DNA of 64,000 bases from Phycisphaerae bacterium (GTDB taxonomy: Bacteria; Planctomycetota; Phycisphaerae; UBA1845; Fen-1342), in contig JAJVHV010000016.1 in NCBI GenBank assembly GCA_022072445.1, positions 248,001 through 312,000 on the forward strand. Direction: 5' to 3'. Under the pieces are notes generated by a model that saw only the letters and a list, made by a program, of their open reading frames with translations, was not told the DNA's origin and did not search any database. Position 1 is the first letter of the stretch; every line of letters begins with the position of its first letter. Below are positions 24,490-45,059 of this stretch, one piece after another. Made by a program: the position numbers and the translations under genes.

Positions 24490-26593
24490 CCCGTGGTGCC
24501 TCCGCGGCGTGCGAGAGGCGAACACAGGGAACGATGTGGCTCGTGAGTCGAACCTTCATGGTTCGTTTCGCTCGTGCGGTCCGAGATTTGATGGTTCGGT
24601 TCGAACGAGCGAAGCGGAATCGAAAAAGTCTCTCCGACCGGCAGAGACTTTTTTTCGAGGAGAGTGCGGTTCCCTCTATACCAGATGCCCACGACCGGCC
24701 TTCGGGCCGGTCGTTCGCGTTTCTGGGCCACGCATTCCCGCCCCGTTGCCGCCCGTTCGCGTTCTGAGGCCGCCCGTTGGACCGTGCGGGCCGGAGGGCG
24801 GGGTCGTCTACGCCGATCCGCCCCGCCGCCACCAGCGCCGCCAAGCCCGCGTTGACGCGCATGACGCCCGTCTTGGTGGTTGGGTTGATCACAATCTCGT
24901 CGATGTATGTCCCGAGGACGCGCCGGACGTGCTCGTTGCGCCGGCCGGCCATCGCGTCCGCGAGGCCGCCGATGCGCTCCCGCGCCCACCGCCGCAGGCC
25001 CTTCTCGTCGAGGTCGCGCGACGACGCCTTCGCTGAGCGCAGGTCGGCCTGGAGATGCTCTTTCCGCCGCCGGAGCTGCGTGAGGCGCTCGTTGAGCAGC
25101 GGCAGGTTGGCGGGATCGATGTTGGCCATGATCGCGGTGACGGTCGCGTCCACCTGGGCGAGCTCGCGCTCGATCACATTCGTATCGGGACCGGCGTCAG
25201 TTTGCCCCCGCGCCAACTCGACGAACCGTTCAACGGCGTCGTCAACGCCAGCGCGATCGGCGAACATGAGTTGCTGGAGTTTCCGCAGCGCCCACGCTTC
25301 GAGGTCGGTCGCTTTCACGTGCGACGGCGTGCGGCAGATGTCCTTCCCGTACTGCCGGCGGCCGGCGCAGGTGTAGTAATGCGAAATGACCGGGCGGCGG
25401 CCGGGAATGTGGCCTTTCGCCTTCCGCTCTCCCCAGTACGCATGCCCGCAGTCACCGCAGCGCAGCACGCCTGAGAGTAACCACCGGCTCGTCTGTTTGC
25501 CGTGCCCACCCTTCGCTTCGGCCCGTTGGCGGACCATCACCTGCGCCCGGTCCCAGGTCTCGCGGTCGACGATTGCGGGGACGGCGTTTTCGATGACGAT
25601 CCAGTCGTCCTTCGGCATGTTTTCGACGCGGCCGGACTGCGCCATCGGCTTCATCTTGTCGACGCGGCGCTCGCGGCAGGCACAGAACTTCGATTCGGTC
25701 CGGCGGTTCCAGACGATGTCGCCGCGATAGGCCGGGTTTTCCAGCAGCGACTTGATGCTCGTGAAGCACCAGAGCTGGCCCCTGGGGCTGATCACGCCAC
25801 GCCGGTTGAGCTCGTCGGCGATGCCCTTGAAGCCCGCGCCTTCGATGCACAGGCGGAAGATGTCGCGCACCACCGCCACGCGTTCCGCAGCACTCAGCAC
25901 GAGGCGGGCGCGACATTCCTTTCCGGGCTTCGCCAGCGCCTGGCCCTTCGTGTATGTCGCCTGAAGGTTTCCATTGCGGTCGAAGACCTGTCGTTCGCCG
26001 CAAGCGGTAAACCGGACGCGATATATGACGGACCCGTCTGGCGCGATCACCTCGCGGTCGTAACCGAACGGCGTCGGGCGACCGGGGTCTGACGCCGCCA
26101 GCACCGACGTGATCTGCCCACGCAGCGTGGTCTGCGACAGGCCGATCGAAAACTGGCGGTTCTGAAACTGCTTCACGGTCCGCAGCACATCGCCATCGAT
26201 GCCGTCGCGGGCCAGGTAGTCTTCCGTGACGCTCACGAGCGTGACGCCGGCCTTCCGCAGCAAGTAGCGGTAGTGCTCCGTCTCGGTGACATCACCGCGC
26301 GAGAACCGGTCGCTGTTCCAGACGATAACGGCTCGGAACTCGCGGCGCTGGGCGTCCGCGATCATCTGCTGGAAGCCCGGCCGCTTGTCGGCCGACGTTC
26401 CGCTGATCGCATCGTCCACGTACTTGCGAACAACGTCGTACCCGTGCTCGCCCGCCCAGCGCGCGATCTCGCGGCGCTGATCGCCGAGACTCTGCTCCTG
26501 GCGATCGGTGGAGCGCCGCAGGTACGCGACCGCGGGCGTCCGCATCGCGACGGCGTGCATGTTTCCGTTTCCGTTGCCGTTCACGGTCGCCAC
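24218..26593 (-). CDS. Large serine recombinase
   Basis: The frame gives 791 aa (GTG start; GTG 26584 with GGGAAGG is an alternative). Domains: resolvase catalytic domain with nucleophile S28 in AYLRRSTDRQEQS, IVWNSDRFSRGD and the YRYLLRKAGV helix; a recombinase DNA-binding domain (PTPFGYDRE to AYRGDIVWNRR); a zinc ribbon (LRCGDCGHAYW...YYTCAGRR...C); and a coiled coil. After about residue 610 the sequence is low-complexity. It runs through a perfect bidirectional terminator and into the antisense of the Rnk-like gene, so the true C terminus is probably earlier or the original stop was lost at integration. Confidence 0.88.
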   Translation of the reverse strand: MATVNGNGNGNMHAVAMRTPAVAYLRRSTDRQEQSLGDQRREIARWAGEHGYDVVRKYVDDAISGTSADKRPGFQQMIADAQRREFRAVIVWNSDRFSRGDVTETEHYRYLLRKAGVTLVSVTEDYLARDGIDGDVLRTVKQFQNRQFSIGLSQTTLRGQITSVLAASDPGRPTPFGYDREVIAPDGSVIYRVRFTACGERQVFDRNGNLQATYTKGQALAKPGKECRARLVLSAAERVAVVRDIFRLCIEGAGFKGIADELNRRGVISPRGQLWCFTSIKSLLENPAYRGDIVWNRRTESKFCACRERRVDKMKPMAQSGRVENMPKDDWIVIENAVPAIVDRETWDRAQVMVRQRAEAKGGHGKQTSRWLLSGVLRCGDCGHAYWGERKAKGHIPGRRPVISHYYTCAGRRQYGKDICRTPSHVKATDLEAWALRKLQQLMFADRAGVDDAVERFVELARGQTDAGPDTNVIERELAQVDATVTAIMANIDPANLPLLNERLTQLRRRKEHLQADLRSAKASSRDLDEKGLRRWARERIGGLADAMAGRRNEHVRRVLGTYIDEIVINPTTKTGVMRVNAGLAALVAAGRIGVDDPALRPARSNGRPQNANGRQRGGNAWPRNANDRPEGRSWASGIEGTALSSKKSLCRSERLFRFRFARSNRTIKSRTARAKRTMKVRLTSHIVPCVRLSHAAEAPRVKDENRPRLRAGRGLHQSSPSACRPACRIEPYRRRGARGSHIPSAPGQTIGDAPIAHLRGTRACRLLGPAIGGRATVCASAWSRFPNRWL
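24567..24613. repeat. Short inverted repeat at the element edge
   Basis: TTCGCTCGT (24567-24575) and ACGAGCGAA (24605-24613) form 9-bp inverted arms around a segment containing two GATGGTTCG/CATGGTTCG-like repeats. It lies between the host Rnk-like gene and the recombinase core and is a plausible part of the attachment region. Confidence 0.35.
24623..24655. terminator. Bidirectional terminator at the host/element boundary
   Basis: Perfect arms AAAAAGTCTCT (24623-24633) and AGAGACTTTTT (24643-24653) have a 9-nt loop and are flanked by A-run and T-run on either side, so it can terminate both the host stress operon and the recombinase transcript. The recombinase reading frame nevertheless passes through it. 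Confidence 0.75.
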
Positions 26594-29957: not shown

Positions 29958-30130
29958 CACGCCGCCTCCTTGCGCTCGCGCTGCCATTCGGCGAGTAGCC
30001 AGGCCGCCAAGGCATCGACGCGCTGCTCCCAGCTCCGCTCGGATGCAGCCGTCGGTTCGGCGACCTCGACCAGCATCTCGAACGCGCCGACCCGTTCCGT
30101 CGCGCTCGGCTCATCCCTGATCGTCTGCAT
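29957..30130 (-). CDS. Small acidic protein coupled to the primase
   Basis: This 57-aa frame, MQTIRDEPSATERVGAFEML onwards, ends EWQRERKEAA. The stop overlaps the primase ATG (TGATG) and the start lies within the 3' end of the excisionase-like gene, so translation is coupled on both sides. It is helical and unrecognised. Below usual annotation size but supported by the overlaps. Confidence 0.5.
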   Translation of the reverse strand: MQTIRDEPSATERVGAFEMLVEVAEPTAASERSWEQRVDALAAWLLAEWQRERKEAA

Positions 30131-30353
30131 GGGCGATTCCTTTCGCCTTCTGGCTGGCGCGGTGCAGCAGCGCCTCTTCGACGGCCGCCGGGTTGAACAG
30201 CAATCGCCGTCCGACGCGCAGGTGCGGAACCCGCCCGGCGAGCGCCTCTGTGCGCAGCCAGGTTGCCGGCACGCCGAGACGACTCGCCGCACGATGCAAC
30301 GGCAGAAACACTTCCGATGTCTGCACTGGCTCCATACCGGTTACATACGTCAC
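30111..30353 (-). CDS. Excisionase-like / MerR-type HTH protein
   Basis: The 80-aa protein contains the helix-turn-helix LHRAASRLGVPATWLRTEAL, followed by the wing HLRVGRRLLFNPAAVEEALL. This is the layout of helix-turn-helix excisionase-type proteins that recognise DNA in mobile elements. ATG 30335 (MEPVQT) is an alternative start. Adjacent to the primase, it probably controls element excision or operon expression. Confidence 0.7.
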   Translation of the reverse strand: MTYVTGMEPVQTSEVFLPLHRAASRLGVPATWLRTEALAGRVPHLRVGRRLLFNPAAVEEALLHRASQKAKGIAHADDQG

Positions 30354-30411: not shown

Positions 30412-31137
30412 TTACTTCGTGATTTCCAGCCGCGAGAGCGCAGCCTGGCAGCGCGTCAGAACGCGCTTTTCCGTTGTCCCTTCGATGATGACTCTCAGAA
30501 TCTTCCGCACATCGGCCGCGCTGTACCGGAAGTTCTTCTGGCCCCGCCCGGGTGTAGCGACTCCAGCCTTCTTCGCATACTCGTTCAGGGCCGTGTTGCC
30601 CAACGTGGTCATCTCGCGAAGTGCGGCGACGGTGTAGGTGGGTGAAGTCGGCGAGGATTCGCTTGCCTCGGTCGTTCGCGGCTCATCCGGCTTCCGGGAA
30701 ACCTGATTGGCGACGCGCTCTTTCAATTGCTGGCGATCGATCCAGGCGAGCGCCATGGTGTACACGTCGCTGAAGGTGTAATTGCCCGAGCGGATCGTCT
30801 CGAACGGCATTTCCACGATGCGCGCCAGGTGCTCCCATTCTTCGAGCGTTTCCGGGGCTTTGAATCCGCGCGCGGTGAGCTCGTCGCCTGTCGCGCGTAT
30901 CGACTGGCGAATCTGCTCGGCCAGCTTCTCGATCGCTTCTTGGTGCTCGCGCCGGTCGCGCTCAAGATCACGACGAAACTCGGCGGACTGAAAGTACGTC
31001 GCGGCCGCGCGCACGTGCTCCTGATAGCGCCGCAGGGCCTCGCGAGCCGCCGGATCGCGCTCTGCCAGGCGCATAAACGCATCGCCGGCCCTTATTCGGC
31101 GCGATGGCTCGCCCTTCGATGAATCGCCTTTCGCCAT
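30412..31137 (-). CDS. Accessory protein with coiled coil and C-terminal HTH
   Basis: The 241-aa protein has a charged helical N-terminal two thirds (RDLERDRREHQEAIEKLAEQ) and a C-terminal region that looks like a helix-turn-helix (TVAALREMTTLGNTALNEYA then YSAADVRKILRVI). No enzyme motif is visible. It starts 7 bp after the restriction-subunit stop, so it is co-transcribed with the restriction operon, as a regulator or DNA-targeting accessory (inference). Confidence 0.6.
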   Translation of the reverse strand: MAKGDSSKGEPSRRIRAGDAFMRLAERDPAAREALRRYQEHVRAAATYFQSAEFRRDLERDRREHQEAIEKLAEQIRQSIRATGDELTARGFKAPETLEEWEHLARIVEMPFETIRSGNYTFSDVYTMALAWIDRQQLKERVANQVSRKPDEPRTTEASESSPTSPTYTVAALREMTTLGNTALNEYAKKAGVATPGRGQKNFRYSAADVRKILRVIIEGTTEKRVLTRCQAALSRLEITK

Positions 31138-31144
31138 CGCGTCG

Positions 31145-34100
31145 TCACTCTTTTGCCAGCGCCGTTAGCGTTGGACCGATCTCACCCAACGACTTCATCA
31201 TCTTGTACGTCCACCGCCCGTGCGTGGTGTCGGCATTCACAGCCGCGACCCAGCGCTCCGCCGCCTGCTGCTTGACCTCCTTCAGGGGATCGAAGCCCTT
31301 CGTCTCCAGGATGACATGAAGTCGTTCAGGTTCGGCGCGCCCGTTCATCCGCACGATGAAATCCGGAACGTAGTCGTGCGGTTGCCCGTTGTGCAGGTAC
31401 GGGATCGTGAAACCAAGATGATCGTTCTTGACGAACGCATCGACCGCGCTGTGACGATCGATCACGTACGCGGCGCTCTGCTCCCACTTCTTCGTGTCCG
31501 CGACGACGTAATTGAGATGGCTTTTGACGATCTCCCGCACCTCGCGGCTCGTCCAGAACTCGACGTCCGCGGTGGTGCCAGCGTCGCGATTGCGTTCGTA
31601 CTGCGGTACTTCCGGCGACTCACCACCCGCGGCGTCAGGTTTGATCGCGCTGAGGAGGCGCTCATGCACCCAGCCGTAGTACGGTGAGCAGAACACGTCG
31701 AGAATGTTCGCGGGCGCGATCGGCTGAACCTTGTCAGTCAAATACCGCATGACGATCTCGGCGACCTGCGGGAAGAGCGCGTGCGGCGGCACGGTGCAAT
31801 TCGGCTGCTCGCAATACCCGCGCACGAGGTCCTTCGCCATGTCGAACGCCAGTTCCTGCAACCGTCGGCCCTGGCGGAACGGATTCAGCGTGACATCCAC
31901 GAGCGCGCCCGGCCCGCTCAGTGTCGGTCGCCCGTGATTGCTCGGCAGTAGCCCCTTCATCTGCACTTCGGGCGGAATGCTGAAGGGATCAAGCCGAAGC
32001 GTAGCGACGGTGGTCCAGTCAACGGTGACGCGATTTCGGATTGCCTGGTTGTATCCCTCGACACGCGGGAAGTGAATCTCGTATTGCGCCTTCTGCGGAA
32101 TGGCATGCACATGATGGCGCTTTTCCCGCGGCTTCGGGCTGCCGCCCTTGTTCTCCTTGAACGGGATCACCTCAAACGGCACGCCGAGAACCTTGGCAAC
32201 CTCCTCAGTCAGCAGCCCGTCGTCACCGATCTCGTAGGAAGCGCGACGCAGTCCGCGCCCCACCACCTGCTCGCAGAGCAATTGCGACATGAACGGCCGT
32301 AGACCGATGATGTGCGTCACCGAGTTGCAATCCCATCCCTCGGTGAGCATGCCGACGCTGACGATGCAGCGAACGTCGCGCCCGGGCGGCGAAAGTGGGC
32401 GGTCAAGTTTCTGAGCCAGCGCCTCGAAGCCTTCGGGGTAGATCGGCCGTCCCAGGCGATCCTTCGGCCAGTCGAGCTTGCCGACGGTATCCAACGTGAA
32501 GCGTATCCATTGAAACTCGTCGCTCTTCGCGTTGTCACTGTCGGTCTCATGCACGACCTTCGTGTCCACACGAATCGTGTTGGCCTGACCGTTATTGAGA
32601 AAGCCCTTGATGCCGGCGGAAGGAATGCCGGACGGCGGGTTGTTCTCGGCAAGCCACTCGTACACGACCTTCGCGATCTTTGTGTTCTTGCAGACGAGGA
32701 TGAAAACGGGCGATCGGCCGCGCTTCTCCTCATCCTTGGCCCACTCAGCGGCCTCCTGCTCCCACAAGCCGCCGAGCATGGCGATCGGGGTGTGCGCCCA
32801 CTTGAGAATCGCCTCGGGTTTCGGATTGCCGCGCCGCCCGCCGCGTTCCGCCGCTGTGAGCCGCGGGAGAATCCACCGCCAGATGTTGAAATACCCGGGA
32901 ATATAAGCGCCGGTCGTATCGCGCACGGCGAGCTGGGGAATCTTCACCAAGCCGCTTTCGATCGCATCCGTCAGCCCAAAATCGCTGACGACCCATGGGA
33001 ACGTCCGATTCGTGTCCTGGCCCACGCGTCCGAGGTAGTACGGCGTCGCCGACAGGTCCACGCAAAAGTTGACGCCGCGCAGTTTGTGAATCTTGTCGAG
33101 GCCGTCGATCCAGACGGTCGCTTCCTTGAAGAATTCCTCGATCTCCTCGTCCTCACCGAAGAGATCTTCCTCGTCGTCGTCCGGCTCCTCCTTGCGGATG
33201 CGATATGCGTGATGCGCCTCGTCATTGAATACGAGGATGTTCTGTTTTCCACCAACTTCGCGGCCGAGCACTCGATTCACTAGGGCGGTGTCGCTCTCGA
33301 CGTACTCATGAGAACGAATCTTCACTTTCACCAGATGGCCGGCCTCGTCTGTCTCCTCTTGCAGCACTTCGACATCGCCGCGAGCCACGGCGCCGGCGAT
33401 GGCCTCGGGCGTCATGTAGCGGTTGCCTCGCGCCGTCGTCGTCTTCGACCCGATGATGACCGTCTCGACCCTATCCACCCGCTTGCCCGCCCGGCTCACG
33501 CGGGCACTGACGCCGCCCACCTGAACGGTCTGTGGCTCGAACACGTGCCAATTGCTGACGAGCACGCGCCCCTTGCAGAGATCAGGCATCATGTGCGGCG
33601 GCACGAGGTCGCGCGTGCGGTACAAGCTCGCATCGCCATGTTCTGGTTGGAGCTCGGCAAGCCGGTTGCGGATCGTCACGTTCGGGCAAACGACCAGCAC
33701 CGTGTCGCTGAAGCGGGCGTCGCCGCGGTCGTTCACCTTGTTCAGAATGCTCCACGCAGCGAGCATTCCCATGACCGTCGTCTTGCCGCTGCCGGTCGCC
33801 ATCTTGCACGCATACCGGCGAAAACCGGCGAAGCCATTCGCTTTCTGCTTGTCGCTGGGCTCGTCGAGCGGAATCTCGACGCCCTGGCGAAAGTCCGACC
33901 GCCCCTCCGTCAGAAAGATGATCGTTTCGACGGCCTCCAGTTGCGCGAAGAACAGCCGGTGCTGCCGGCCATCGCGCCGCCAGTAGTTCATCAACTCGCA
34001 CGTCGTGCGCGTGACGCCGCCCCCGCCAGCAAGCGCTTCGTTGCGCCATGCCTTTACGCGCTCGCGGATCAGGTTGACGAGTTTCAGCTCGATGAGCGTG

Positions 34101-34285
34101 CCAGGCCGCTCGCGCGCGCCCTCCTCGTCGTGTTCCTCCTGGCGGGTGGGCGGTTTGAACCAGTACATCGCCGGCCGCCGCCCGGGGCGCTTATCCGGCG
34201 GCTCGCCTTCGATCAGCCACCAATGCGATGTGGGCTCGTCGTACGGGCCGTTGAGAATTGGTGCGGGAACCTCGAAGGCGTTCAT
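31145..34285 (-). CDS. res: Type III restriction enzyme Res subunit (helicase-nuclease)
   Basis: This 1046-aa protein starts at ATG 34285, in an ATGA overlap with the OLD-like gene; longer frames upstream are rejected. It has the SF2 helicase core: Walker A MATGSGKTT at 162-170, ILVFNDEAHHAY (DEAH), CVDLSATPYYLG (motif III), and SVGMLTEGWDCNSVTHIIGL with EQVVGRGLRR (motifs V/VI). The C terminus has a PD-(D/E)xK-type nuclease (DYVPDFIVRM...VILETKG). It cleaves DNA together with the methyltransferase 2.4 kb upstream. Its length and motif set fit the BPTD_3080-like type III R family. Confidence 0.92.
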   Translation of the reverse strand: MNAFEVPAPILNGPYDEPTSHWWLIEGEPPDKRPGRRPAMYWFKPPTRQEEHDEEGARERPGTLIELKLVNLIRERVKAWRNEALAGGGGVTRTTCELMNYWRRDGRQHRLFFAQLEAVETIIFLTEGRSDFRQGVEIPLDEPSDKQKANGFAGFRRYACKMATGSGKTTVMGMLAAWSILNKVNDRGDARFSDTVLVVCPNVTIRNRLAELQPEHGDASLYRTRDLVPPHMMPDLCKGRVLVSNWHVFEPQTVQVGGVSARVSRAGKRVDRVETVIIGSKTTTARGNRYMTPEAIAGAVARGDVEVLQEETDEAGHLVKVKIRSHEYVESDTALVNRVLGREVGGKQNILVFNDEAHHAYRIRKEEPDDDEEDLFGEDEEIEEFFKEATVWIDGLDKIHKLRGVNFCVDLSATPYYLGRVGQDTNRTFPWVVSDFGLTDAIESGLVKIPQLAVRDTTGAYIPGYFNIWRWILPRLTAAERGGRRGNPKPEAILKWAHTPIAMLGGLWEQEAAEWAKDEEKRGRSPVFILVCKNTKIAKVVYEWLAENNPPSGIPSAGIKGFLNNGQANTIRVDTKVVHETDSDNAKSDEFQWIRFTLDTVGKLDWPKDRLGRPIYPEGFEALAQKLDRPLSPPGRDVRCIVSVGMLTEGWDCNSVTHIIGLRPFMSQLLCEQVVGRGLRRASYEIGDDGLLTEEVAKVLGVPFEVIPFKENKGGSPKPREKRHHVHAIPQKAQYEIHFPRVEGYNQAIRNRVTVDWTTVATLRLDPFSIPPEVQMKGLLPSNHGRPTLSGPGALVDVTLNPFRQGRRLQELAFDMAKDLVRGYCEQPNCTVPPHALFPQVAEIVMRYLTDKVQPIAPANILDVFCSPYYGWVHERLLSAIKPDAAGGESPEVPQYERNRDAGTTADVEFWTSREVREIVKSHLNYVVADTKKWEQSAAYVIDRHSAVDAFVKNDHLGFTIPYLHNGQPHDYVPDFIVRMNGRAEPERLHVILETKGFDPLKEVKQQAAERWVAAVNADTTHGRWTYKMMKSLGEIGPTLTALAKE

Positions 34286-36012
34286 GGGCCGGCCCCCGGA
34301 TCGGGAGTGCCCGCATCGGCAGCCGGTGGCGCGGCCAATGTGTTTGTCCGTGCGACGCCAAAAGCGTCGCAAATAGCGTCGAGCTTCTGGACCACCTCTG
34401 GAGGAATCTCCGCCGGTTGCATCACCGCGGCAATCTCGTGGTATCGCGTGTATGGGAAACCCTGCAGCCCGCCTTCGCTCAGCAGCGGTGGTATGAGTCG
34501 CTCGCGGGCTTTGTACTCGCGAAACACTGCTTCGGCGGGAAGATGCTCTCGCATTGGATTGTCGACAAAGGCTTGAGTCAGCATCTCCGCACACTTGGCA
34601 CGCACGGATGCACGCTGCTCCGCGGTAAACGCCGCCGTTCCGACCTGGGACTCAATGAATCGTTCGATCGCCGCCGGATGCACAAGGTAGCTCTCGATTT
34701 CGTATCGGCCCCAGCGAACGAGCTGGAGTCCATCACCATTCACCGCTGTTTCGGGAAGATGCGGATTCCCGTCGCGATCCTGGATTTCCAGCCCCTTCAT
34801 CGCCGGATGAACGAGACGCAGCGCGTTGAAGTGGTCCGCTGATGGAAAGCCCTCAGCACCCGGACGCGTCTGCTCGCTGTACTTGTGCCAGAACAGCCTG
34901 GTCGTTAGCAGGTCGGTCGCAGGATGATTCAGGACTTTCGCCCAGGCGCGCAGAATCTCGATGTCCGTGTAGCCCTCGACGTACAGGATGCCGGGCGCGC
35001 TGGACGCCAGCATCACGTCGGTGTTGCTCAGAATCTTCAGCCCACGAATCAGTTGCTGTCGCTCGCGCGAGTCCGCCATGACGCGCGGTTGGCCATACAT
35101 GACCATCAGTTCGCTCGGGTCGACCGAGTTGATGATCACCTCGGAGTGCGTCGCCAGAATGAGCTGCGAGTGCTGCTCCGCGGCGACGGCGCGCAGCTCA
35201 CTGTAGATCGCATCCTGAAGCAGGACATGCAGGTGGGCATCCGGCTCGTCCAGCAGCAGCACCGACCCCGGCCGCGTGACTAGGAACGTCAGCAGCATCA
35301 GCACCTGCTGGAATCCACTGCCGGCGCTGGCGATATCGAAACGAGTCCCACCTTCGCCGACCTCGTATTCGGCGATGATCGAGCGGCCCTTCTCGTTCGG
35401 CGGGAGAATTCGGTATCCGAAGAGGCGGTCGATCGATGCTTCAAGCTTGCGCCAAGCCGTTTCGGATCGCCCGGCGCGAACAAGCAGATTCCGCAGGACT
35501 TCACCGGGACGCCCCTCCGCGAGGCGTGCGTCGATCGTTTCATCCCGCCCGAGCAGGGGCTCGTCCGGCACCAAGCCGGTCATCGGAGGGACATAAATGG
35601 CGTTCAGTTTCGTTTTGGACGCGTGCCAGTCGTGCGTTGACGCCGACGGCCGCACGCGAATCTGCTCCTTGTCGAACCGAAACTCCATCGTGACGGAGCG
35701 CCCGTCGTCCATGTGGACGCCGATGCTCATCTCCGAACCGGTGCGGCGCTCATACCAAATCAGGTCGAGCGAACGTACGGGCACGGCGAGAAAGTCCGGC
35801 CTGGCGATCTCCTTGAACGGGAACGTGCCCTGCGGCTTCGCGGTCGTGTTCAATTCCTGCCAGCGCGTGAGCGCCAACTCCCACGCGGCCAATGCCTGTA
35901 GCAGCGTCGTTTTGCCCGTGTTATTCGGCCCCGCGAGCACGACGTGGCCCGGCAGCGTGATGTCCACGTTGCCGAAGCGCTTGAAGTTGCGGAGTGTGAC
36001 CTTACGGATCAT
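34282..36012 (-). CDS. OLD-family ATPase with TOPRIM domain
   Basis: The 576-aa protein begins with an ABC/AAA ATPase head (RNFKRFGNVD, Walker A LAGPNNTGKTTLLQALAA). It continues with a signature/Walker B region (SAGSGFQQVLMLLTFLV, then VLLLDEPDAHLH, H-loop LILATHSEVII). After this is a TOPRIM-like segment (GILYVEGYTDIEILRAWA), the arrangement of OLD-family nucleases. OLD proteins act in phage defence (P2 OLD, Gabija GajA). Here the gene is wedged between DUF4145 and res, 3 bp after one and overlapping the other, so it appears integral to the restriction operon. Confidence 0.82.
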   Translation of the reverse strand: MIRKVTLRNFKRFGNVDITLPGHVVLAGPNNTGKTTLLQALAAWELALTRWQELNTTAKPQGTFPFKEIARPDFLAVPVRSLDLIWYERRTGSEMSIGVHMDDGRSVTMEFRFDKEQIRVRPSASTHDWHASKTKLNAIYVPPMTGLVPDEPLLGRDETIDARLAEGRPGEVLRNLLVRAGRSETAWRKLEASIDRLFGYRILPPNEKGRSIIAEYEVGEGGTRFDIASAGSGFQQVLMLLTFLVTRPGSVLLLDEPDAHLHVLLQDAIYSELRAVAAEQHSQLILATHSEVIINSVDPSELMVMYGQPRVMADSRERQQLIRGLKILSNTDVMLASSAPGILYVEGYTDIEILRAWAKVLNHPATDLLTTRLFWHKYSEQTRPGAEGFPSADHFNALRLVHPAMKGLEIQDRDGNPHLPETAVNGDGLQLVRWGRYEIESYLVHPAAIERFIESQVGTAAFTAEQRASVRAKCAEMLTQAFVDNPMREHLPAEAVFREYKARERLIPPLLSEGGLQGFPYTRYHEIAAVMQPAEIPPEVVQKLDAICDAFGVARTNTLAAPPAADAGTPDPGAGP

Positions 36013-36015
36013 GCA

Positions 36016-36708
36016 CTACTTTCCAATCTGCGCCTTCATCGCCGCGATCTGCGTCGGCAGCTCGTACAGGTCGTGAAATACCAGCTCAAGCACCTGGATC
36101 GTGTAGCGGGCCTGTTCCGCCGTCACATCAAGCAGCGTCTCGGCCGGGTCCGACTTGTCCTTCAGCGGATGAGCGCCCCAATTGCCGAACTCGCGAATGT
36201 GACCGATCGCTTCGCGCGTGGGGCGCGACAAATCCGGCAGCTTGACTGCTTCCTCGATCTCCTCAAACAGTGTCCGCTTCTCGATCTTCAGCTTCTCACG
36301 GATCACGCGCTGCAGCGCACGCCGAGCGAGTATCGCCGCGGCGCGTGACGACAGCGAGAAGACCGCGCGTGCCTCGTCGTAGGCTCTCTTCGCGTCGGGG
36401 TCCACGCCGGCCGGCGCTTTGTCCGGCAGCACGCCCAACGGCCAGAGATAGTGCCACTTCGGTCGCTGATCACTCGGATTGTCAATGGTGGCAACGCCAA
36501 TCGCAAATTGCTGGCATGACGGGCAGCGCCCGATGCCGATGTTCTGCACCAGTCGCCCCGCATGCTGCATTTGCTTGTCGTGCAGCCCGCCCGTCCACAG
36601 CGGCGCATGATACTGCACCGCGATCCCGCAATGCGGGCAGTAGGCCGGGTAGTGCTCGAACTTGCCCGTGCCCTCGAAGGCCTCCTTCAGCGTCAGCACA
36701 TTCGCCAT
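36016..36708 (-). CDS. DUF4145 protein with zinc-ribbon-like N terminus
   Basis: The 230-aa protein has an N-terminal CPHC...CPSC pair (YCPHCGIAVQY and GRCPSCQQFA) likely to bind zinc. A helical DUF4145 domain follows (SSRAAAILARRALQRVIREK, then IREFGNWGAHPLKDKSD). DUF4145 is related to HEPN-type helical domains often encoded with restriction and abortive-infection genes. It starts one base after the methyltransferase stop and ends 3 bp before the OLD-like gene, which implies a shared function. Confidence 0.8.
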   Translation of the reverse strand: MANVLTLKEAFEGTGKFEHYPAYCPHCGIAVQYHAPLWTGGLHDKQMQHAGRLVQNIGIGRCPSCQQFAIGVATIDNPSDQRPKWHYLWPLGVLPDKAPAGVDPDAKRAYDEARAVFSLSSRAAAILARRALQRVIREKLKIEKRTLFEEIEEAVKLPDLSRPTREAIGHIREFGNWGAHPLKDKSDPAETLLDVTAEQARYTIQVLELVFHDLYELPTQIAAMKAQIGK

Positions 36709-39687
36709 CTACGACGCCTCCGACGCCTTCTTCACCACCAGCAGTTCATTCCCCCGATCATCAATCACCTTCACCGCCACCTGCCCGTTCTCGCCGATCT
36801 GGAACGGCGCGCTGGTCGTGCCGGCCAGGTGGTCCCAGACGCTTTCGGCGTACTCGGCCTTCAGCGCCCGCTTCAGGTCGTCCCACGCCGCCGTGCGCGG
36901 GAAGAACACCTGCGACGCCTTGAAGCACAGCGCGTTGTAGTCGCTGTCCAGCAGCCAGCAGGGCACGTCGCTGCCCGGCCGGTGATCGACCTCCATCGTC
37001 GCCGGGTCGAACACGTCCAGTCCCAGCAGCTCGGCCTGATACCAGCCGTTGCGGGCGGCCTCCTTCGGGTCCAGGCCTATCCGCTTCAGTTCGTCCGCGT
37101 CGGCCTTGCGCAGCTTCACCTCCGGCAGGCCGCAGACACTGAAGATCTGGCTGCTGCGCATGTTCTTGAGCAGGTCGCCCATCATCAGGTCCGGCGTCGC
37201 CTGCACATACGTCGCCGGCACGCCGACCGCCTGCTCGCAGTCGTCGATCAGCTTGCGGGCGTTGGGCTGGATGGCGAAGCCGATCACGTACAGGTGGGAG
37301 TAGCTCTTGGCATGCGCCTCGCGGGCCGCCTCGTACACGGCCTTTTCCGACACCGCCCCGTTCTCCGGCCCGAACAGAATCGCGACGGGTTTGCCGCGAT
37401 CGGCGTCCTTGCCTTGATCCGAGCCGCGCGAATCAGAGCCGCGCGCGTCAGCAAGCGGTTTCTTGGCGCTCGCAACGGGCGCGGCCGAACCCGCTCCCTC
37501 ACGGTCGCGGCTCTGATTGCCGTTCCCGTTGACCACCAGCGCTTCGGCGCTGAGCGACAGCGTTTTCGCCGGTGGGCGGATGTTCTTCAATGAAACCGTC
37601 TTGTTCCCGCCGACATGCAGCACGGGAGAGCGGCGCAGCACTTCGATCATGCGATCAACGAACGTGCCGTAGTCCTGGCTTGCGGCCACGCCGGTATCCG
37701 ACTCGCCATCGTTGTCCCAGTCGATCGGCGTCGGAATCGTCGCCTCGACCACGAACGGTCCGGTCACGCGCGTGATGTTCCCGCCGGCCTTCTCCGGCCG
37801 ATCGACCAGCACTTCCTCATCCGGCGGCTCGTTGTTCGCGATGCTCCCGAGCGTGACGTGCGGCACGATGCCGCCGACCTCTTCGCCCTTGCTGTTCTGC
37901 TTGCGCTGGTAGACGAACCCGCCGGCCGGGCCGCGGGCCTCGTCCTTTAATTCGTAATAGTCGTACGTCGCCGTCAGCAGCCGCTGCCGGGCCAGTGCCA
38001 GCGGCACGCGGCTGGTGTCGCACGTGATCCAGCGCCGGCCCCACTGTTCGCCGACGTACGCCGTCGTGCCCGAGCCGCACGTCGGGTCGAGCACGAGGTC
38101 GCCGGGGTCGGTCGTCATCAGCATGCAGCGCAGAACCGCGAGGGGATTGGTTTGCACGACGTAGAGTTTCTTGTCGGCGAAACCCGAAGTGACAGTGTCA
38201 TCCCAGACGTTAGTTACGGGAAAGTACGCAAAGTCATCAAGAAACCGCACAAACCGAAGGCTGTTACCGAGGGCCAATAGTCGCTTCGCAGCCGCGAGCC
38301 CGTCGAGCCCCGGCTTGTCCGTCTTGAATGTGCCTTTACCGGGTGTAAACCTCTGACCCTCGAAGACGAACTCTCGAACATCCGTTCCCTGCGAGGGTCG
38401 CTGGCTTGTGAGATTGTCGTGCGCGAAGAGTTTCGCGCCCGGTGGAAGATCGCGCAGGGCGTCAGGAGAGCCGAGATTGCGACGCGTGCCGTCCGGCAAC
38501 TCGACCCAGGTGTATTGGCTCGCTCCGGCGTCACCGGCGACCTTCTCCCGAAACAACTGCCGGTACTTCAGTCGCTCTGCGTCCCTCGCATACCAAAGCA
38601 AGTAGTCGGCAACAGCTGGCAGAACGGTGCTCGACGCGCCAGTCGTCTTCTTGATCGCGATGACGTTGACGAAGTGCTCTGCGCCGAATACTTCATCGAG
38701 GAGCTCTCGAACATGGTGCAGATTCTCGTCGCTAATCTGGACGAAGATGCTTCCGGTCGGATGCAACAAGTCGCGGGCCAGCAGCAGCCGATCGCGCAAG
38801 TACGTCAGATACGAATGCAGTCCCAACTCCCACGTATCCCGGTACGCCTTCACCATCTCTGGTTCGCGCGTCAGATCGTCGTCATCGTTGTGCTTCACGT
38901 CGCGTTTGCGAACGAACGGCTGGAAGTTGCTGCCGTACTTGATGCCGTACGGCGGGTCCATGTAGATCATCTGGACCTGCGCGCCCAGCCCCTCGTAGCG
39001 CAGGAGCGAGTTCATCACCACCAGCGAATCGCCCAGGATCAGCCGGTTCTGCCACTTGTCGGGGAATTCGTAGGCTTTCAGCACCTGGTCGGCCACGGGG
39101 TGCTGCGGGTCGCCGAAGAGGTCGAACATGGTCATCTGCTTGTCGCGGCGGTGGCCCTTGAGCGTTTCGAGGATCGCCTTGGTGCTCAGCCGCTCGTGCA
39201 CGAACAGCGGCAGCGTCGGCACGTCGAAGCTCAGCCGCTCGGCCTTACCGGCCCAGTTCAGGAAGGGCTTCTCCAGCCGCTTGAGCTGCTCAACGGCGTC
39301 CGCCAGCGAGCGGACGGTCGCGACGACCTCGCCGCGGGCGTTCTTGAGCTGGTGCGGTTCTGGAAATGTGTGCAGTGGTCGAGATTCGCCCGGCGCGGGC
39401 AGCGGTAGGCGCGAAGCTTCTTCGATGCACCGGATCAGCCACGCCCCCAGCTCGCGTGCGGCGTTCTGGCCGTCCCACTCCAGCGCCGGCGACAGCGACG
39501 AATCGTAGCGGTACGTGGCCGGCGGCTTCTTCTTGCGGAACTGCGACTGCGTGCCGACCTCCGGCCGCAGGAGGGAGGTGGCCTCAGGGTGCTTGTAGGA
39601 CGCGGTCTCGACAGGCTTGCTGTTGCCGCCCTTGCGGCCGCCCGCGGCGCTGGCCCTGGTCGTTGTTGATGCTCTGCGCTTCGCCAT
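36709..39687 (-). CDS. mod: Type III DNA adenine/cytosine methyltransferase Mod subunit
   Basis: This 992-aa protein has catalytic DPPY at residues 244-247 (MIYMDPPYGIKYG), with the AdoMet-binding motif following it (LVLDPTCGSGTTAYVGEQW near 530). That is the beta-class order typical of type III Mod. The region between the two carries the target-recognition segment. The C-terminal third is unusually long and contains an in-frame palindromic repeat (37434-37515). It pairs with the Res subunit encoded downstream on the same transcript. The specificity cannot be read from sequence. Confidence 0.92.
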   Translation of the reverse strand: MAKRRASTTTRASAAGGRKGGNSKPVETASYKHPEATSLLRPEVGTQSQFRKKKPPATYRYDSSLSPALEWDGQNAARELGAWLIRCIEEASRLPLPAPGESRPLHTFPEPHQLKNARGEVVATVRSLADAVEQLKRLEKPFLNWAGKAERLSFDVPTLPLFVHERLSTKAILETLKGHRRDKQMTMFDLFGDPQHPVADQVLKAYEFPDKWQNRLILGDSLVVMNSLLRYEGLGAQVQMIYMDPPYGIKYGSNFQPFVRKRDVKHNDDDDLTREPEMVKAYRDTWELGLHSYLTYLRDRLLLARDLLHPTGSIFVQISDENLHHVRELLDEVFGAEHFVNVIAIKKTTGASSTVLPAVADYLLWYARDAERLKYRQLFREKVAGDAGASQYTWVELPDGTRRNLGSPDALRDLPPGAKLFAHDNLTSQRPSQGTDVREFVFEGQRFTPGKGTFKTDKPGLDGLAAAKRLLALGNSLRFVRFLDDFAYFPVTNVWDDTVTSGFADKKLYVVQTNPLAVLRCMLMTTDPGDLVLDPTCGSGTTAYVGEQWGRRWITCDTSRVPLALARQRLLTATYDYYELKDEARGPAGGFVYQRKQNSKGEEVGGIVPHVTLGSIANNEPPDEEVLVDRPEKAGGNITRVTGPFVVEATIPTPIDWDNDGESDTGVAASQDYGTFVDRMIEVLRRSPVLHVGGNKTVSLKNIRPPAKTLSLSAEALVVNGNGNQSRDREGAGSAAPVASAKKPLADARGSDSRGSDQGKDADRGKPVAILFGPENGAVSEKAVYEAAREAHAKSYSHLYVIGFAIQPNARKLIDDCEQAVGVPATYVQATPDLMMGDLLKNMRSSQIFSVCGLPEVKLRKADADELKRIGLDPKEAARNGWYQAELLGLDVFDPATMEVDHRPGSDVPCWLLDSDYNALCFKASQVFFPRTAAWDDLKRALKAEYAESVWDHLAGTTSAPFQIGENGQVAVKVIDDRGNELLVVKKASEAS
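37434..37515. repeat. Planctomycete-type palindromic repeat inserted in frame in mod
   Basis: Arms CAGAGCCGCGCGCGTCAGC (from 37434) and CACGGTCGCGGCTCTG (to 37515) contain the exact 9-bp inverted pair AGAGCCGCG/CGCGGCTCT. In the mod frame it encodes SRDREGAGSAAPV and PLADARGSDSRGSD, low-complexity text unlike the flanks. I recall this repeat as common in planctomycete intergenic regions. A further partial copy (GAGCCGCGCGAATC) abuts it. Confidence 0.65.
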
Positions 39688-40024: not shown

Positions 40025-40753
40025 CTACGGCGTCGTCATCCGCTCGTAGATGGCGGCCTCCTCCTTCTCCAGCCGGGCGACCTCCTTCTCGGCTTGCGGA
40101 AGTTCCGCCTTCGCCGTATCGGCGGCGCGCTGGTTCCGTTCAGCACGCTCACGCCATTCGGCGATGTGGCGCGGGTGGCTGCCGGGCGTTACGCCCTCAG
40201 CGTGACGGCGAGCTTCGGCCAGGTCGTCCTCGGCGTCCTCCGCGCGGCCGGCCTCCCGTTTCAGCGCCGCGACGCGGTTGCGCTGTTCGTTCAGGCGCTC
40301 CTGGGTCGCCGCGAGCTCGGCCTAAACGTCGGCGTACGGGCAGGTCTCCATCAAGCGCCGCCGCGCGTCGGATGCGTCGCTCACGCGCGCCTTGACGAAG
40401 TCGAGCCGGGCGTACATGGGGCCGGTCGCGTCGGCGTGCGACTGCTCGGCCGTCGCGAGCTTGCGATCCTCTGCCGCGATGCGGTCCTTGATCGCCGCGC
40501 GCTCCTTCTCCAGCGCCGGCTCGCCGGAGATGATCGCGTGCCACTGGCGGCGCTGTTGGATGATCTCCACAGCCTTCTTCAACTCGGCCGGGGTCTTGCC
40601 GCTTTCGGCCAGCAGCCGTTCGACGGCCGACGCCGCGACCTTCTCGCCGGCGGCGAGCTTCTGTGCGATGGTCCAGAACTCGGCCTCACGGTTGGTGCGG
40701 CGCGATTCCAACTCAGTCAACAGTTCAGTAAGCATGACATCCCTTTCACGCAC
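40025..40753 (-). pseudogene. Coiled-coil protein interrupted by an in-frame amber codon
   Basis: From ATG 40753 the frame encodes 143 aa, then meets TAG at 40322-40324 after ETCPYADV. The same frame continues beyond it for 98 codons of convincing coiled coil (AELAATQERLNEQRNRVAAL, AEKEVARLEKEEAAIYERM) to a second TAG at 40025-40027. A single base change (for example CAG to TAG) explains the break. The intact protein would be about 242 aa, helical, of unknown function. Truncated 143-aa expression is possible. The start overlaps the upstream metallopeptidase-like gene by 8 bp. Confidence 0.65.
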
Positions 40754-41564
40754 GTGGTGAGGAAACTTGACGCATGCACGCTGCGAGCGTCATCGGAATC
40801 TCGTTCGTCATCTCGGCCTGAGAAACCCAGCGCTCGACATCGGCCCACCACAACTCGGTGAACGCTGTCGGCGGCGTGGCGCGACGGATCGCCTCGAAGT
40901 CGCATCCGGCCATGCGCGCGGGTTCGTCGCCGAGCGCCAGGGCGTACTGAAATGTGGAGGAGAGGCCGTACTCGCCCAGGTCGATCACGTCGCGGGGCGA
41001 CACGCTTATGCCGGCGGCGCTGGCTCGTTCCGCCAGGTGCATGGCGATGCGAATGAACGGCCACTCGTGCATTCGCCAGGGCACGGGCGCGCCGGGTCCG
41101 TTGGTCGGTCGGTTATCGGGCGCGGCCGGCTCGCTGAACAATCGCCGACCCGCGCGGACCCACCAGTCGTCGGGTTCACGCTTCGGGACGAATTCCATGT
41201 CGATCACGTGCGCGAGCTCGTGCAGCACGATGCTGAGCAACGCGGGTAGGAACACACGTTTTCGCGCTGTTCGCGGGCGGTACCGAGCCGCCGCCGCGAT
41301 GGCGGCCGCGTCGATCAAGATGGCGGGACCGCGCCCACGCCAGCGCCGTTTCCTCTCAAGCGTCGACCGCAGGATCAGGTCGAGGTGGGCGATCGTGCAG
41401 CTGGCGTAATCCTCGCCGCCAGCCCAGTCACGCGGCAGGTCGGACCGCAGCACGATGTACACGGGCCGGCCGGCGAGCTCAGGCGCAACGGCGTGGCACA
41501 GCATCTCGGCGCTGGCGGCGAGGCTCCGCGCCCGAATCTCCGGCTTCCGTTCTAATGCTCGCAT
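40746..41564 (-). CDS. Zincin-like protein with HELAH motif
   Basis: This 272-aa protein starts at ATG 41564 behind GGAGGTCAGAACG; longer frames upstream are rejected for lack of a ribosome site. It carries LSIVLHELAHVIDMEF, an HExxH-type zinc site with a nearby acidic residue, and a C-terminal region with WWADVERWVSQAEMTNEIP. There is no signal peptide, so it would be cytoplasmic. Similar HELAH proteins (IrrE/ImmA-like or SprT-like) occur on mobile elements, but the assignment to either is not secure. Co-directional with the mod-res operon. Confidence 0.65.
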   Translation of the reverse strand: MRALERKPEIRARSLAASAEMLCHAVAPELAGRPVYIVLRSDLPRDWAGGEDYASCTIAHLDLILRSTLERKRRWRGRGPAILIDAAAIAAAARYRPRTARKRVFLPALLSIVLHELAHVIDMEFVPKREPDDWWVRAGRRLFSEPAAPDNRPTNGPGAPVPWRMHEWPFIRIAMHLAERASAAGISVSPRDVIDLGEYGLSSTFQYALALGDEPARMAGCDFEAIRRATPPTAFTELWWADVERWVSQAEMTNEIPMTLAACMRQVSSPRA

Positions 41565-41800
41565 CGTTCTGACCTCCATGTCACGCCGCAGTTCTCGTGC
41601 CCATGAGTTACGTTGCGTCGGCGCGCAGCTCACGCCGCGTCTTCGACGCCGTTCGGTCCCCATCGAAAGTGGAAAAGCAGCGCCGCCGCGGGTGGCGCGG
41701 CGGGTTCCGGGCGATCACCCGGCGGTCGCGGGTTGATAGAGAGGCGTTCCCCCGCTAGTTGACCGGCCGTATCGAAATCGGCCGACCGAGTGGTTAACGC
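41565..41800. other. Upstream region of the metallopeptidase-like gene
   Basis: This is the first part of a 612-bp gene-free interval between the divergently transcribed HELAH and CHAT genes. No convincing frame or tRNA is seen. The decamer GGTTAACGCG at 41793-41802 recurs at 41991-42000. Confidence 0.3.
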
Positions 41801-42176: not shown

Positions 42177-44345
42177 ATGGGATCGAGCGAAACCCCCGAG
42201 ATTTTCAACCGGTGGCCGACCTACGTGGTCGTTTTTGACTCCGAGGCGCCGATCGACAGGCCCGCACCCGCCATCGTTCCAGTTCGACGCAACGAGCCAA
42301 ATGCTCTGGGGACTGTTCCCCACCAGCTGGACAAGAGCCTCACATCGACACTTCACCCTCTCTGGTTCTTCATGCACCTGCCGCGCGTCTTTCGCGATAT
42401 GCGGGACAGCAACGCCAAGCCGCTAAAGGAAATGCAGCAGTTCGATCTATCTCATTCTGTGGTTCTATGGCCGTCGAGATTCGTAACGGAGCGCGGGGAA
42501 TTACCTTCCAAACCCGATCACGAGATCTGCATCATCGTGGCGACAGCACGCACGGTCGATGCCGTACGTCGGCTCGTCGCTCAGAACGCTTTGCAGGCGA
42601 CGGTCTACGAGAATTCGGAGTTGTCCGCTGAGGTGCTCGCTGATGAGTGGAACAAGATGGCCGACCGGGTCGGGCGGGCAAACGTAACGTTGGCGCGGCC
42701 GCTACCTCTCACGGAGTACGTCAACAATGCGAGCTCCTTACTGCCCTTACGTTGGAGCCAGCGCCAGTTCCTGAATTGGGAGCTGCCTGAGCGAACTGGG
42801 CCCGATGACCTAGGTCGCCGGCTTCGATGGGTTCTAGAGATACAGGCTCACATCGACGCCATCGCGCGAATGGAAAGAGATGATCGTTCTCGCGACGAGG
42901 CCTCATCGCTGATGGAAAAAGAGGTGGAAGCGTCGAGGAGGAGTGTGAGGTTCCCGGTCGCGGTTGGGCTGCCCGGCGTTCCGCCAGTTTTTGCAAAACG
43001 AATCCTGCCAAAGCCGAATCATGAACGAGCTTCGGAGCCGGAGAATCTAGAGCTCTTGCGACTGGAGCAACTGAAGTCTGATACGCTTGCCGACGTCAGT
43101 ATTGAACGAGCCGCACTTGAGGCAGTCGTATCGCACCGGGCGACTGCACGCGGCGGTGCCGGCCTCTACCTAAATCCCGCGCCCACTAAGGCATTCCGTC
43201 TACTTGATGGACTGGAGTCTCACTGCCAATCGGGCAAGCCGGATGCAAAATTCGTTTGGAAGCAGCTCGCACAAATCGGTGCCTCGTTCGAAAAGCACTT
43301 CACCGAAGCGGAGCACGATGTAATTCGACACGCATCTATGTTGACGCTCTTTTCGAACTACCCGTTGGGCCTGATCACTCTTCCCGGAGACAGCGCTCCC
43401 TTGGTCTGCAGACTACCCATCGCGATGCGACCGCTACTTCCTCTGACTCGAACGCTTCAGACCGAACTGAGCCAGCCGCCGCTGTTCTACCTGGCGGATG
43501 ATCTGCGAGTGTCGATCATTGAGTGTATTCCAGACAGCGATCCCGTCGGACGTGCGTCGCGTGCCGGGTGGTCCATCGGACTAAAGATGCTCGAAGCCAC
43601 GCCGAGAACGAGAGCTGGCCGATTCGACGCCAAGAGCGCAGAGGAAGTGTCACGGATTATCGCGGGGGAGCGCCCGCACATCCTCTTCTTGAGTGCTCAC
43701 GGACACTACGATCGATCCACCAACACCGCCGGCATCGTGGTCGGCGATAGAACATGCTTCGGGGATGAATTCGGAGCCATGCCGCCGTGCGTGATCATGA
43801 GTTCCTGCCACACGGCACCGAGGGGCATTGGTGCCGCGGTCTTTGGTGATGTTCTGATTCGGCATGGTGCGGTGTGCATGCTGAATACGCTGATTCCTGT
43901 AAGCGTGTCTCACAATGCAACGCTCATGTTGCGTTTCATTTCATATCTGTCGGATTGTTTAGAGGGGAATACGACGCTTCGCGACATCGGAGAAATCTGG
44001 CATCATGTGGCCGCATCAAATGCTGTACATGATGTGTTGGGTTGCTGCACAGCTGCAGAAGAATGGGGCAGTAGCTCTCTGAACGGGAAGCCGGTCATTG
44101 CCTTGTTCAAATTGGAACGCTCCCAGGGTCGCATTCGATTGAATCACGTCTACCAGGACACGATCGCCGTCCTTGACGAGTTGGCGGCGGAATCGGGCAT
44201 CCTGGAAAAGTTCCGCCAGTGGATGCGGACTCTCAGCTACTTCCCAGAGAGTCTCTTCTACGTGATGCATGGATGGCCTGAACGCATCGTTTTGACAGAC
44301 CCCACCATCGCGCGCATGCAGGCCGCTGGCTACGGCAAAGGATGA
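42177..44345 (+). CDS. CHAT-domain caspase-like protease
   Basis: This 722-aa protein has a C-terminal CHAT peptidase domain with catalytic His508 (HILFLSAHGHYDR) and Cys544 (CVIMSSCHTAP). The typical downstream helix region FGDVLIRHGAVCMLNTLIPV and LRFISYLSDCLEGNTTL follows. The N-terminal 450 residues are helical with no recognisable TPRs, though VVLWPSRFVTERGE and other strands suggest a sensor domain. CHAT proteases act as regulated effectors, including in phage defence (TPR-CHAT with type III-E CRISPR). Its AT-richer codon use differs from its neighbours, consistent with transfer. Confidence 0.82.
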   Translation: MGSSETPEIFNRWPTYVVVFDSEAPIDRPAPAIVPVRRNEPNALGTVPHQLDKSLTSTLHPLWFFMHLPRVFRDMRDSNAKPLKEMQQFDLSHSVVLWPSRFVTERGELPSKPDHEICIIVATARTVDAVRRLVAQNALQATVYENSELSAEVLADEWNKMADRVGRANVTLARPLPLTEYVNNASSLLPLRWSQRQFLNWELPERTGPDDLGRRLRWVLEIQAHIDAIARMERDDRSRDEASSLMEKEVEASRRSVRFPVAVGLPGVPPVFAKRILPKPNHERASEPENLELLRLEQLKSDTLADVSIERAALEAVVSHRATARGGAGLYLNPAPTKAFRLLDGLESHCQSGKPDAKFVWKQLAQIGASFEKHFTEAEHDVIRHASMLTLFSNYPLGLITLPGDSAPLVCRLPIAMRPLLPLTRTLQTELSQPPLFYLADDLRVSIIECIPDSDPVGRASRAGWSIGLKMLEATPRTRAGRFDAKSAEEVSRIIAGERPHILFLSAHGHYDRSTNTAGIVVGDRTCFGDEFGAMPPCVIMSSCHTAPRGIGAAVFGDVLIRHGAVCMLNTLIPVSVSHNATLMLRFISYLSDCLEGNTTLRDIGEIWHHVAASNAVHDVLGCCTAAEEWGSSSLNGKPVIALFKLERSQGRIRLNHVYQDTIAVLDELAAESGILEKFRQWMRTLSYFPESLFYVMHGWPERIVLTDPTIARMQAAGYGKG

Positions 44346-44501
44346 CATTGCAGCGCCGTAGATTCGGCCGGACACCCGCCTCGATTCCTCCTTCCTGCAC
44401 TCGATCCATCGCAGCGCGGACATGGAATGCGCACGGTGGCGTACGTATTGCGTAGCCGAGCCGACTGAGCAGTTATGGCTCGTTCTACGAGGAGGTCGCC
44501 A

Positions 44502-44753
44502 ATGTCGTCGCGCACGGATGCGCCGCTTTCCCCCGTTGAACGCCGCCGACAGGTCGCATCGATTCTTGCACGGGGCGTCGCTCGCTGGCGCCGGCACGTT
44601 CGCGCGACCACGGTCAGCGATGCTCAGGAATCTGGACCCGCGGTTGAAAATCGCCTTGAGCTTTCCCGCGAAACGAGGCTCAGTGTGTCCGACGCCAGTC
44701 ACGGGTTGACGGGCTGGAAGCCCATCCCCCCCCGGAGCCGACGGAGACGATGC
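44502..44753 (+). pseudogene. Recombinase-cassette small protein, stop lost through repeat insertion
   Basis: ATG 44502 follows a perfect GAGGAGGTCGCCA. The first 65 residues (LSPVERRRQVASILARGVAR onwards, ending LELSRETRLSVS) look like the short protein that precedes DUF2924 and a serine recombinase in planctomycete cassettes. Its expected stop is replaced by a palindromic repeat (GWKPIPP), so the frame runs on without interruption into the DUF2924 gene, giving a 185-aa fusion ending at 45059. Family assignment is from memory of the cassette layout. Confidence 0.5.
44699..44735. repeat. Planctomycete-type palindromic repeat (GWKPIP / GMGFQPV)
   Basis: ACGGGTTGACGGGCTGGAAG continues into CCCATCCCCCCCC. 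Read on the plus strand it encodes TGWKPIPP and on the minus strand GGMGFQPVNP, both text strings I associate with a dispersed planctomycete repeat. It lies exactly between the cassette small protein and the DUF2924 start. Confidence 0.55.
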
Positions 44754-45059
44754 ATGAAACTCAACCTCGCCAAGGAGCTGGCGGCGCTCGAGCGGATGTC
44801 GGTCGGGCAGCTCCAGGGGCGGTACGCCGAAGTTTTCGGCGAGACCGTTCGCAGCCGCCACAAGCAGTATCTGATCCGGCGCATCGCCTGGCCGCTCCAA
44901 GCCAATGTCGAGGGCGGGCTTTCGGAACGGGCGCTTCGACGCGCCGAGGAACTCGCCGACGTGGCTGACGTTCGTGTCACGCCGCCACGGGGCGGGGTTT
45001 CTGCCAACCCGGCGGCGACCGCGACGCGTTCGGACGGTAGCCCGCCCCACCCTGATTGA
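44754..45059 (+). CDS. DUF2924 family protein, orphan of its recombinase
   Basis: This 101-aa protein starts at ATG 44754 with CGGAGACG upstream. Signature: LAALERMSVGQLQGRYAEVF, GETVRSRHKQYLIRRIAWPL, then GGLSERALRRAEELA. DUF2924 proteins typically lie directly upstream of a large serine recombinase on the same strand. Here the next gene is a convergent efflux gene 27 bp away, so the recombinase is missing. The C-terminal 25 residues are low-complexity. Function unknown, presumed recombination accessory. Confidence 0.78.
   Translation: MKLNLAKELAALERMSVGQLQGRYAEVFGETVRSRHKQYLIRRIAWPLQANVEGGLSERALRRAEELADVADVRVTPPRGGVSANPAATATRSDGSPPHPD

Follow-up and report, generated by a model that had tools for sequence, protein, structure and literature searches.

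The window analysed here, a stretch of 64,000 nt from a Phycisphaerae bacterium (Planctomycetota; GCA_022072445.1, JAJVHV010000016.1 positions 248,001-312,000, forward strand), carries four genes that all lie on the minus strand in the order mod (39687-36709), a DUF4145 gene (36708-36016), an OLD-like gene (36012-34282) and res (34285-31145). The stop codon of mod directly abuts the start codon of the DUF4145 gene (TAG|ATG, 0 bp), 3 bp separate the latter from the OLD gene (TAG-TGC-ATG), and the OLD stop and the res start overlap by 4 bp in an ATGA at 34282-34285 (minus strand), as in translational coupling. The start of res was placed at ATG 34285, within the shared ATGA, while the mechanical ORF begins upstream at GTG 34594. 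The first-pass annotation had described four same-strand genes spaced by 0, 3 and -4 bp, and both the ORF coordinates and the junction sequences agree with it. Since the four long open frames come with intact motifs and coupled junctions, the arrangement is not a product of chance, and the four-gene operon is real. A plain two-gene type III restriction-modification (RM) system with random neighbours was ruled out by the exact junctions and by the recurrence in other genomes given below.

The gene mod (36709-39687, minus strand) encodes a type III DNA methyltransferase of 992 aa with the motifs DPPY (244-247) and DPTCGSGTT (534-542), which matches Pfam N6_N4_Mtase (7.8e-26) and the PADLOC profile MTase_III (1.3e-153) and, among solved structures, the Mod proteins 6k0w and 4zcf (EcoP15I). 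The gene res (31145-34285, minus strand) encodes a BPTD_3080-family restriction helicase-nuclease of 1046 aa, which matches NF046055 (BPTD_3080) over residues 8-1041 with 1016.6 bits, above the curated cut-off of 800, and carries Walker A GSGKT at 165, DEAH at 355, and PDFI at 974 and ETKG at 994 as a PD...ExK motif. Hallmarks of type III RM are the cleavage at two unmodified head-to-head sites and the methylation of only one strand. Judging from their motifs, namely DPPY and GSGTT in Mod and GSGKT, DEAH and PDFI...ETKG in Res, the two proteins would make up a type III RM pair. As in other BPTD_3080 RM systems (NF046055 with Mod), Res lies above the cut-off, Mod is type III-like, and mod and res are tightly paired; however, most members of the family have an empty interval or other genes between the two, whereas the OLD and DUF4145 genes lie inside it here. 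No relatives of Res or OLD were found in an annotated phage collection.

The OLD-like gene (34282-36012, minus strand) encodes a protein of 576 aa, which was assigned as an ABC-ATPase with a TOPRIM nuclease domain from its family, motifs and predicted fold. It matches AAA_21 (4e-22) and AAA_15 (1e-18) as well as many OLD-type defence ATPases, and possesses Walker A GPNNTGKT (28-35), Walker B LLLDEPD (252-258) and an H-loop (H289). The TOPRIM stretches LYVEGYTD (343), IQDRD (410) and EIESY (438) follow, and in the alignment E346, D350, D412, D414, E440 and K501 are invariant in the RM-embedded OLDs. According to a previous study, the catalytic residues of Ts OLD are E377/D381, D431xD433, S478xE480 and R487 (PMC7049728); in the window protein, E346/D350, D412xD414 and E440 correspond to the acidic ones. 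The S/T preceding the final TOPRIM E in OLDs is E438 in the window protein, the counterpart of R487 is, from the alignment, probably K501, and the DxD is down to a single D in a second OLD clade.

The first-pass annotation had counted the lack of an ATPase/TOPRIM fold in the OLD-like protein as a refutation; both folds are present in the predicted models. A full-length AlphaFold2 model (pLDDT 77, pTM 0.71, 11 sequences) gave the T. scotoductus OLD (TsOLD 6p74) as the top Foldseek match (E 1.7e-11), and its N-terminal part aligns to PtuA, AriA and SMC/Rad50 heads (VIA Z about 18-21). The C-terminal 237 residues, which were modelled separately, have the OLD TOPRIM regions 6nk8/6njv (B. pseudomallei, X. 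campestris) as top matches with a Foldseek probability of 1.00; in VIA these score Z 8.6-8.9, followed by PARIS AriB (8.6) and GajA (6.3). According to the models, the protein is thus predicted to combine an ABC-ATPase with a TOPRIM fold, as OLD-family proteins do, and it is presumably an active nuclease. It shares the two domains and the E/D...DxD...E...K pattern with OLD Class 1 (P2 Old, T. scotoductus OLD) and Class 2 (GajA of Gabija). Class 1 OLDs, however, are isolated single genes, whereas the window OLD is embedded in a four-gene operon, and Class 2 OLDs have a UvrD-like GajB partner, whereas the gene following the window OLD is the BPTD_3080 Res. Membership in Gabija or PARIS was rejected because of the wrong partners; in PARIS, moreover, the ATPase AriA and the TOPRIM protein AriB are encoded by two genes, while a single fused protein of 576 aa is found here. 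The same genome carries a second OLD (L075; G000:C28:5590-7305), which is 36% identical, stands alone and has no adjoining RM genes. No close OLD relative was found in a plasmid search, where the widest matches reached 24-27% identity and none covered 80%.

The remaining gene (36016-36708, minus strand) encodes a DUF4145 (HEPN-clan) protein of 230 aa, which matches PF13643 with 9e-15 and 54.9 bits (gathering cut-off 23.1) and PADLOC PD-T7-4 with 9e-12. Its N-terminus contains two zinc-ribbon-like CPxC pairs, at 24 and 62. R172 and N176 are invariant in seven relatives, and H180 is kept in six of the seven. HEPN RNases were defined by an Rx4-6H motif (PMC3710099); the spacing here is R172-x7-H180, with G175 occupying the Rx4 position, so RNase activity cannot be claimed for this protein. 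DUF4145 domains beside RM genes are already known from HEPN/DUF4145 genes near RM (PMC3710099), from PD-T7-4 and from BxaP, but the present case is a small zinc-ribbon plus DUF4145 protein that occurs once in such an operon and departs from the strict Rx4-6H motif. No DUF4145 gene was found in any of 49 mod/res loci from genomes, also by profile, or in any of 22 mod/res loci from viral or plasmid-like contigs, and no relatives were found on the viral contigs or plasmids searched. In 392 genomes of the phylum, the closest relative is that of L056, which is about 41-44% identical and belongs to another defence island, with genes resembling type I RM hsdM/hsdS nearby. On this distribution, the DUF4145 gene is best described as a local one-off addition to the operon, and a conserved four-gene system was rejected, as the gene was found only once.

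The operon lies inside an integrative element of about 21 kb (window 24218-45059). Its genes include a large serine integrase (Resolvase, Recombinase and Zn ribbon; 24218-26593, minus strand), a P4-type phage/plasmid primase (27609-29987, minus strand), an excisionase-like protein (30111-30353), two backbone genes (40322-40753 and 40746-41663, minus strand) and a DUF2924 gene (44475-45059). A HARE-HTH protein is also present, no virion genes were recognised, and a search for direct repeats as attachment sites gave nothing convincing. Starting 7 bp after res, an ORF of 241 aa (30412-31137, minus strand) has no family match; it probably belongs to the element backbone or is a regulator, and it is possibly co-transcribed with the operon, i.e., a fifth operon gene. 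On the opposite strand near the operon, a CHAT-domain protein (42177-44345) matches PADLOC BovA (9e-20) and is possibly another defence gene of the element.

A related element in genome G010 (locus L062) is identical to the present one by 60% in the integrase, 67% and 49% in the genes at 40322 and 40746, and about 60% in the DUF2924 gene. The two backbone genes flank the same slot there, and the cargo in it is res-OLD-mod, only 33% (res) and 30% (OLD) identical to the window genes, so that the same element slot has received two different RM-OLD sets. Such exchange of cargo within a serine-integrase element, together with a truncated OLD at L161 and a broken RM at L228, would suit the idea that a mobile element carries the two middle genes along as hitch-hiking or decaying cargo, with no selected joint function. 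We consider this improbable, since neither OLD nor DUF4145 is truncated, their motifs are intact and their junctions exact, and OLD has been recruited recurrently and in conserved order.

To place the operon among its relatives, the BPTD_3080 Res was searched in 392 genomes of the phylum, which added 49 loci where mod and res are both present; the sampling is almost wholly from a single phylum, with many draft metagenome assemblies and ORF-based gene calls. The two genes abut or overlap in 12 of these loci, while in the other 37 they leave an interval of 372-5494 bp, nearly always with co-directional ORFs. The order mod-OLD-res is present in three of the 49, namely L141 (G380), L142 (G063) and L151 (G083), from three other taxonomic families. 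All three have a 4-bp overlap between mod and OLD, and OLD and res overlap in L141 and L142. None of the 22 mod/res loci on viral or plasmid-like contigs carries OLD. Between the window and L141, identity is 53% for OLD and 67% for Res, OLD being the more divergent of the two between the same loci. OLD relatives occur in 31 of 397 genomes of the class and most of them stand alone. The first-pass annotation had proposed that both middle genes were built into one composite system, and had suggested looking for the four-gene order in other genomes: OLD bears the proposal out, as the three-gene core mod-OLD-res recurs in three other families with an OLD clade of its own, whereas the proposal is not supported for DUF4145, which is absent from every other mod/res locus examined. 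Under a uniform-placement null, the adjacencies have probabilities of about 2e-9 and 4e-9, values that exaggerate the significance because defence genes cluster, and therefore more weight was put on order and ancestry.

In an IQ-TREE phylogeny of OLD, the window protein and those of L141, L142 and L151 form one clade with support of 100/99, and their next relatives, L227-L229, fall outside it. The reversed order res-OLD-mod is found at L062, L242 and L246, whose OLDs are placed elsewhere in the tree, with L062 apart from L242 plus L246, indicating at least two, and probably three, entries of OLD into this RM family. Some OLD-carrying BPTD_3080 RM loci (L242:6675-8433, L246:7248-9010, L228:6201-8115) also share a gene pair made up of DUF5131 (phage Gp37/Gp68-like) and what we take to be a TcmP-like gene. 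At L228, OLD adjoins broken mod and res pieces, and the pair lies within a split res. In the Res tree, the OLD carriers are found among close systems that have an empty slot, a REP-type transposase, ORF6N or an unknown protein, and the window Res groups with those of L161 and L142 at 98/98. The Res-only query of genome contigs returned a single locus, L161, a Phycisphaera mikurensis MAG contig (SBAX01000300) whose res is 91% identical to that of the window. Here (L161:1-6044) OLD is reduced to its last ~44 codons upstream of res, with the same 4-bp overlap with res, which reflects either a rearrangement or an assembly artefact. Serine recombinase and ParB-like genes lie upstream of the remnant.

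The mod/res interval of the BPTD_3080 family (L106-L160, L222-L226, L261-L284) contains SLFN_AlbA_2 (five proteins), GmrSD_N (three) and PIN (three), as well as DUF3800, nucleotidyltransferases, HNH, DUF5131, ORF6N, KilA-N, an IS200-type transposase and others, and with such varied contents it is a general accessory site. Two loci (L144:3902-7804 and L145:4575-8417) have a mod of ~1300 aa, in which DPTCGSGTT is split after DPTC by an insertion of ~350 aa; the insertion resembles an intein in its Hint-type residues, also contains a DUF559-like stretch, and possibly represents an intein in the methyltransferase active site. Because the slot takes many unrelated genes, position alone is no proof of joint action. 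OLD may accordingly be an embedded but independent module, i.e., a stand-alone complementary defence (with or without DUF4145) that sits in an insertion-tolerant, co-expressed slot. The many unrelated defence-type genes hosted by the slot and the occurrence of related OLDs alone in most genomes speak for it, as does a known precedent: TgvAB of V. cholerae VPI-2, whose genes lie within an operon for a type I RM, protects its host in the absence of HsdR (PMC11411939). Genes embedded in Hma offer a similar case (Payne et al. 2024, as cited in PMC11411939). These systems are alike in having extra defence genes embedded in an RM operon, although the embedded enzyme is OLD in a type III-like RM here, and in the case of TgvAB a GmrSD-like enzyme of type IV in a type I RM. 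The mod-OLD-res OLDs, however, form a separate clade that has travelled with this RM type across four families, and the coupled overlaps at the OLD junctions have been kept; hence we regard independent action as possible but rather unlikely.

It is highly improbable, on the other hand, that OLD and DUF4145 belong to the restriction machine itself as working or regulatory components, for example ones needed in Res cleavage or in keeping Res off self DNA. Despite the shared operon and translational coupling, closely related mod-res pairs (Res 58-70% identical) at L145, L222, L261 and L140 have no gene or only a transposase between them, which indicates that the pair is complete without the middle genes. 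Most relatives of the RM family also have no OLD (it is present in 3/49 and 0/22 loci), so OLD is dispensable for core restriction.

The recurrence of the three-gene core in distant relatives of the phylum makes mod-OLD-res look like a single two-layer defence system, and the explanation that we put forward, with about an even chance of being right, is a complete BPTD_3080 Mod-Res RM to which an OLD effector is dedicated as a second layer and a HEPN-like DUF4145 was added once. According to the functions of the respective families, Mod would mark host sites, and Mod-Res would translocate on and cut unmarked DNA. OLD, from an RM-dedicated lineage and presumably co-expressed through translational coupling, would most likely serve as a second nuclease layer directed at phages able to evade or block restriction, with their DNA or nucleic acid as the substrate. 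By analogy with OLD, Gabija and PARIS, its ATPase may keep the TOPRIM site inactive as long as no signal has come from a phage or from damage. DUF4145 was probably recruited once, as an effector acting on RNA or as a helper of HEPN type. From the sequences compared, the dedicated OLD clade and the preserved overlaps favour coupling between OLD and RM, while the greater divergence of OLD than of Res is compatible with a sensor in an arms race as well as with loose coupling.

For HEPN and OLD genes in the vicinity of RM or BREX systems, a back-up or abortive action has already been hypothesised in the literature (PMC3506569, PMC3710099, PMC12839542). The coupling of immunity and suicide was argued for RM systems generally (PMC3506569), and PARIS and the OLD/HEPN back-up effectors in BREX were argued to act upon failure or inhibition of restriction (PMC12839542). 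PARIS and, in BREX systems, the OLD/TOPRIM back-up effectors (PMC12839542) resemble the present case in that an OLD-type ATPase with a TOPRIM nuclease sits beside a DNA-restriction system; however, the partner here is a type III-like RM instead of BREX. PARIS is activated by a phage restriction inhibitor (Ocr), and a comparable back-up or abortive trigger may be supposed for the window OLD by analogy. The operon proteins might also form a physical complex. A bolder proposal is that the window represents a new OLD class for type III-like RM, in which Mod-OLD-Res would be one machine, OLD would respond to restriction that has stalled or been inhibited, or to over-active translocation, by releasing the TOPRIM nuclease, and DUF4145 would be an added RNA-cutting arm; this seems to us decidedly unlikely.

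Among the openly accessible papers searched, no description was found of BPTD_3080, of a type III RM with OLD, or of mod-DUF4145-OLD-res. The mod-OLD-res unit, read as an RM with a dedicated second-layer OLD, offers a compact test case for the old idea that restriction systems have a built-in second or suicidal layer, as a stable unit with one OLD clade can be set beside the independent OLD recruitments by other RM operons. Moreover, the BPTD_3080 mod/res interval is suggested as a searchable slot for further defence genes.
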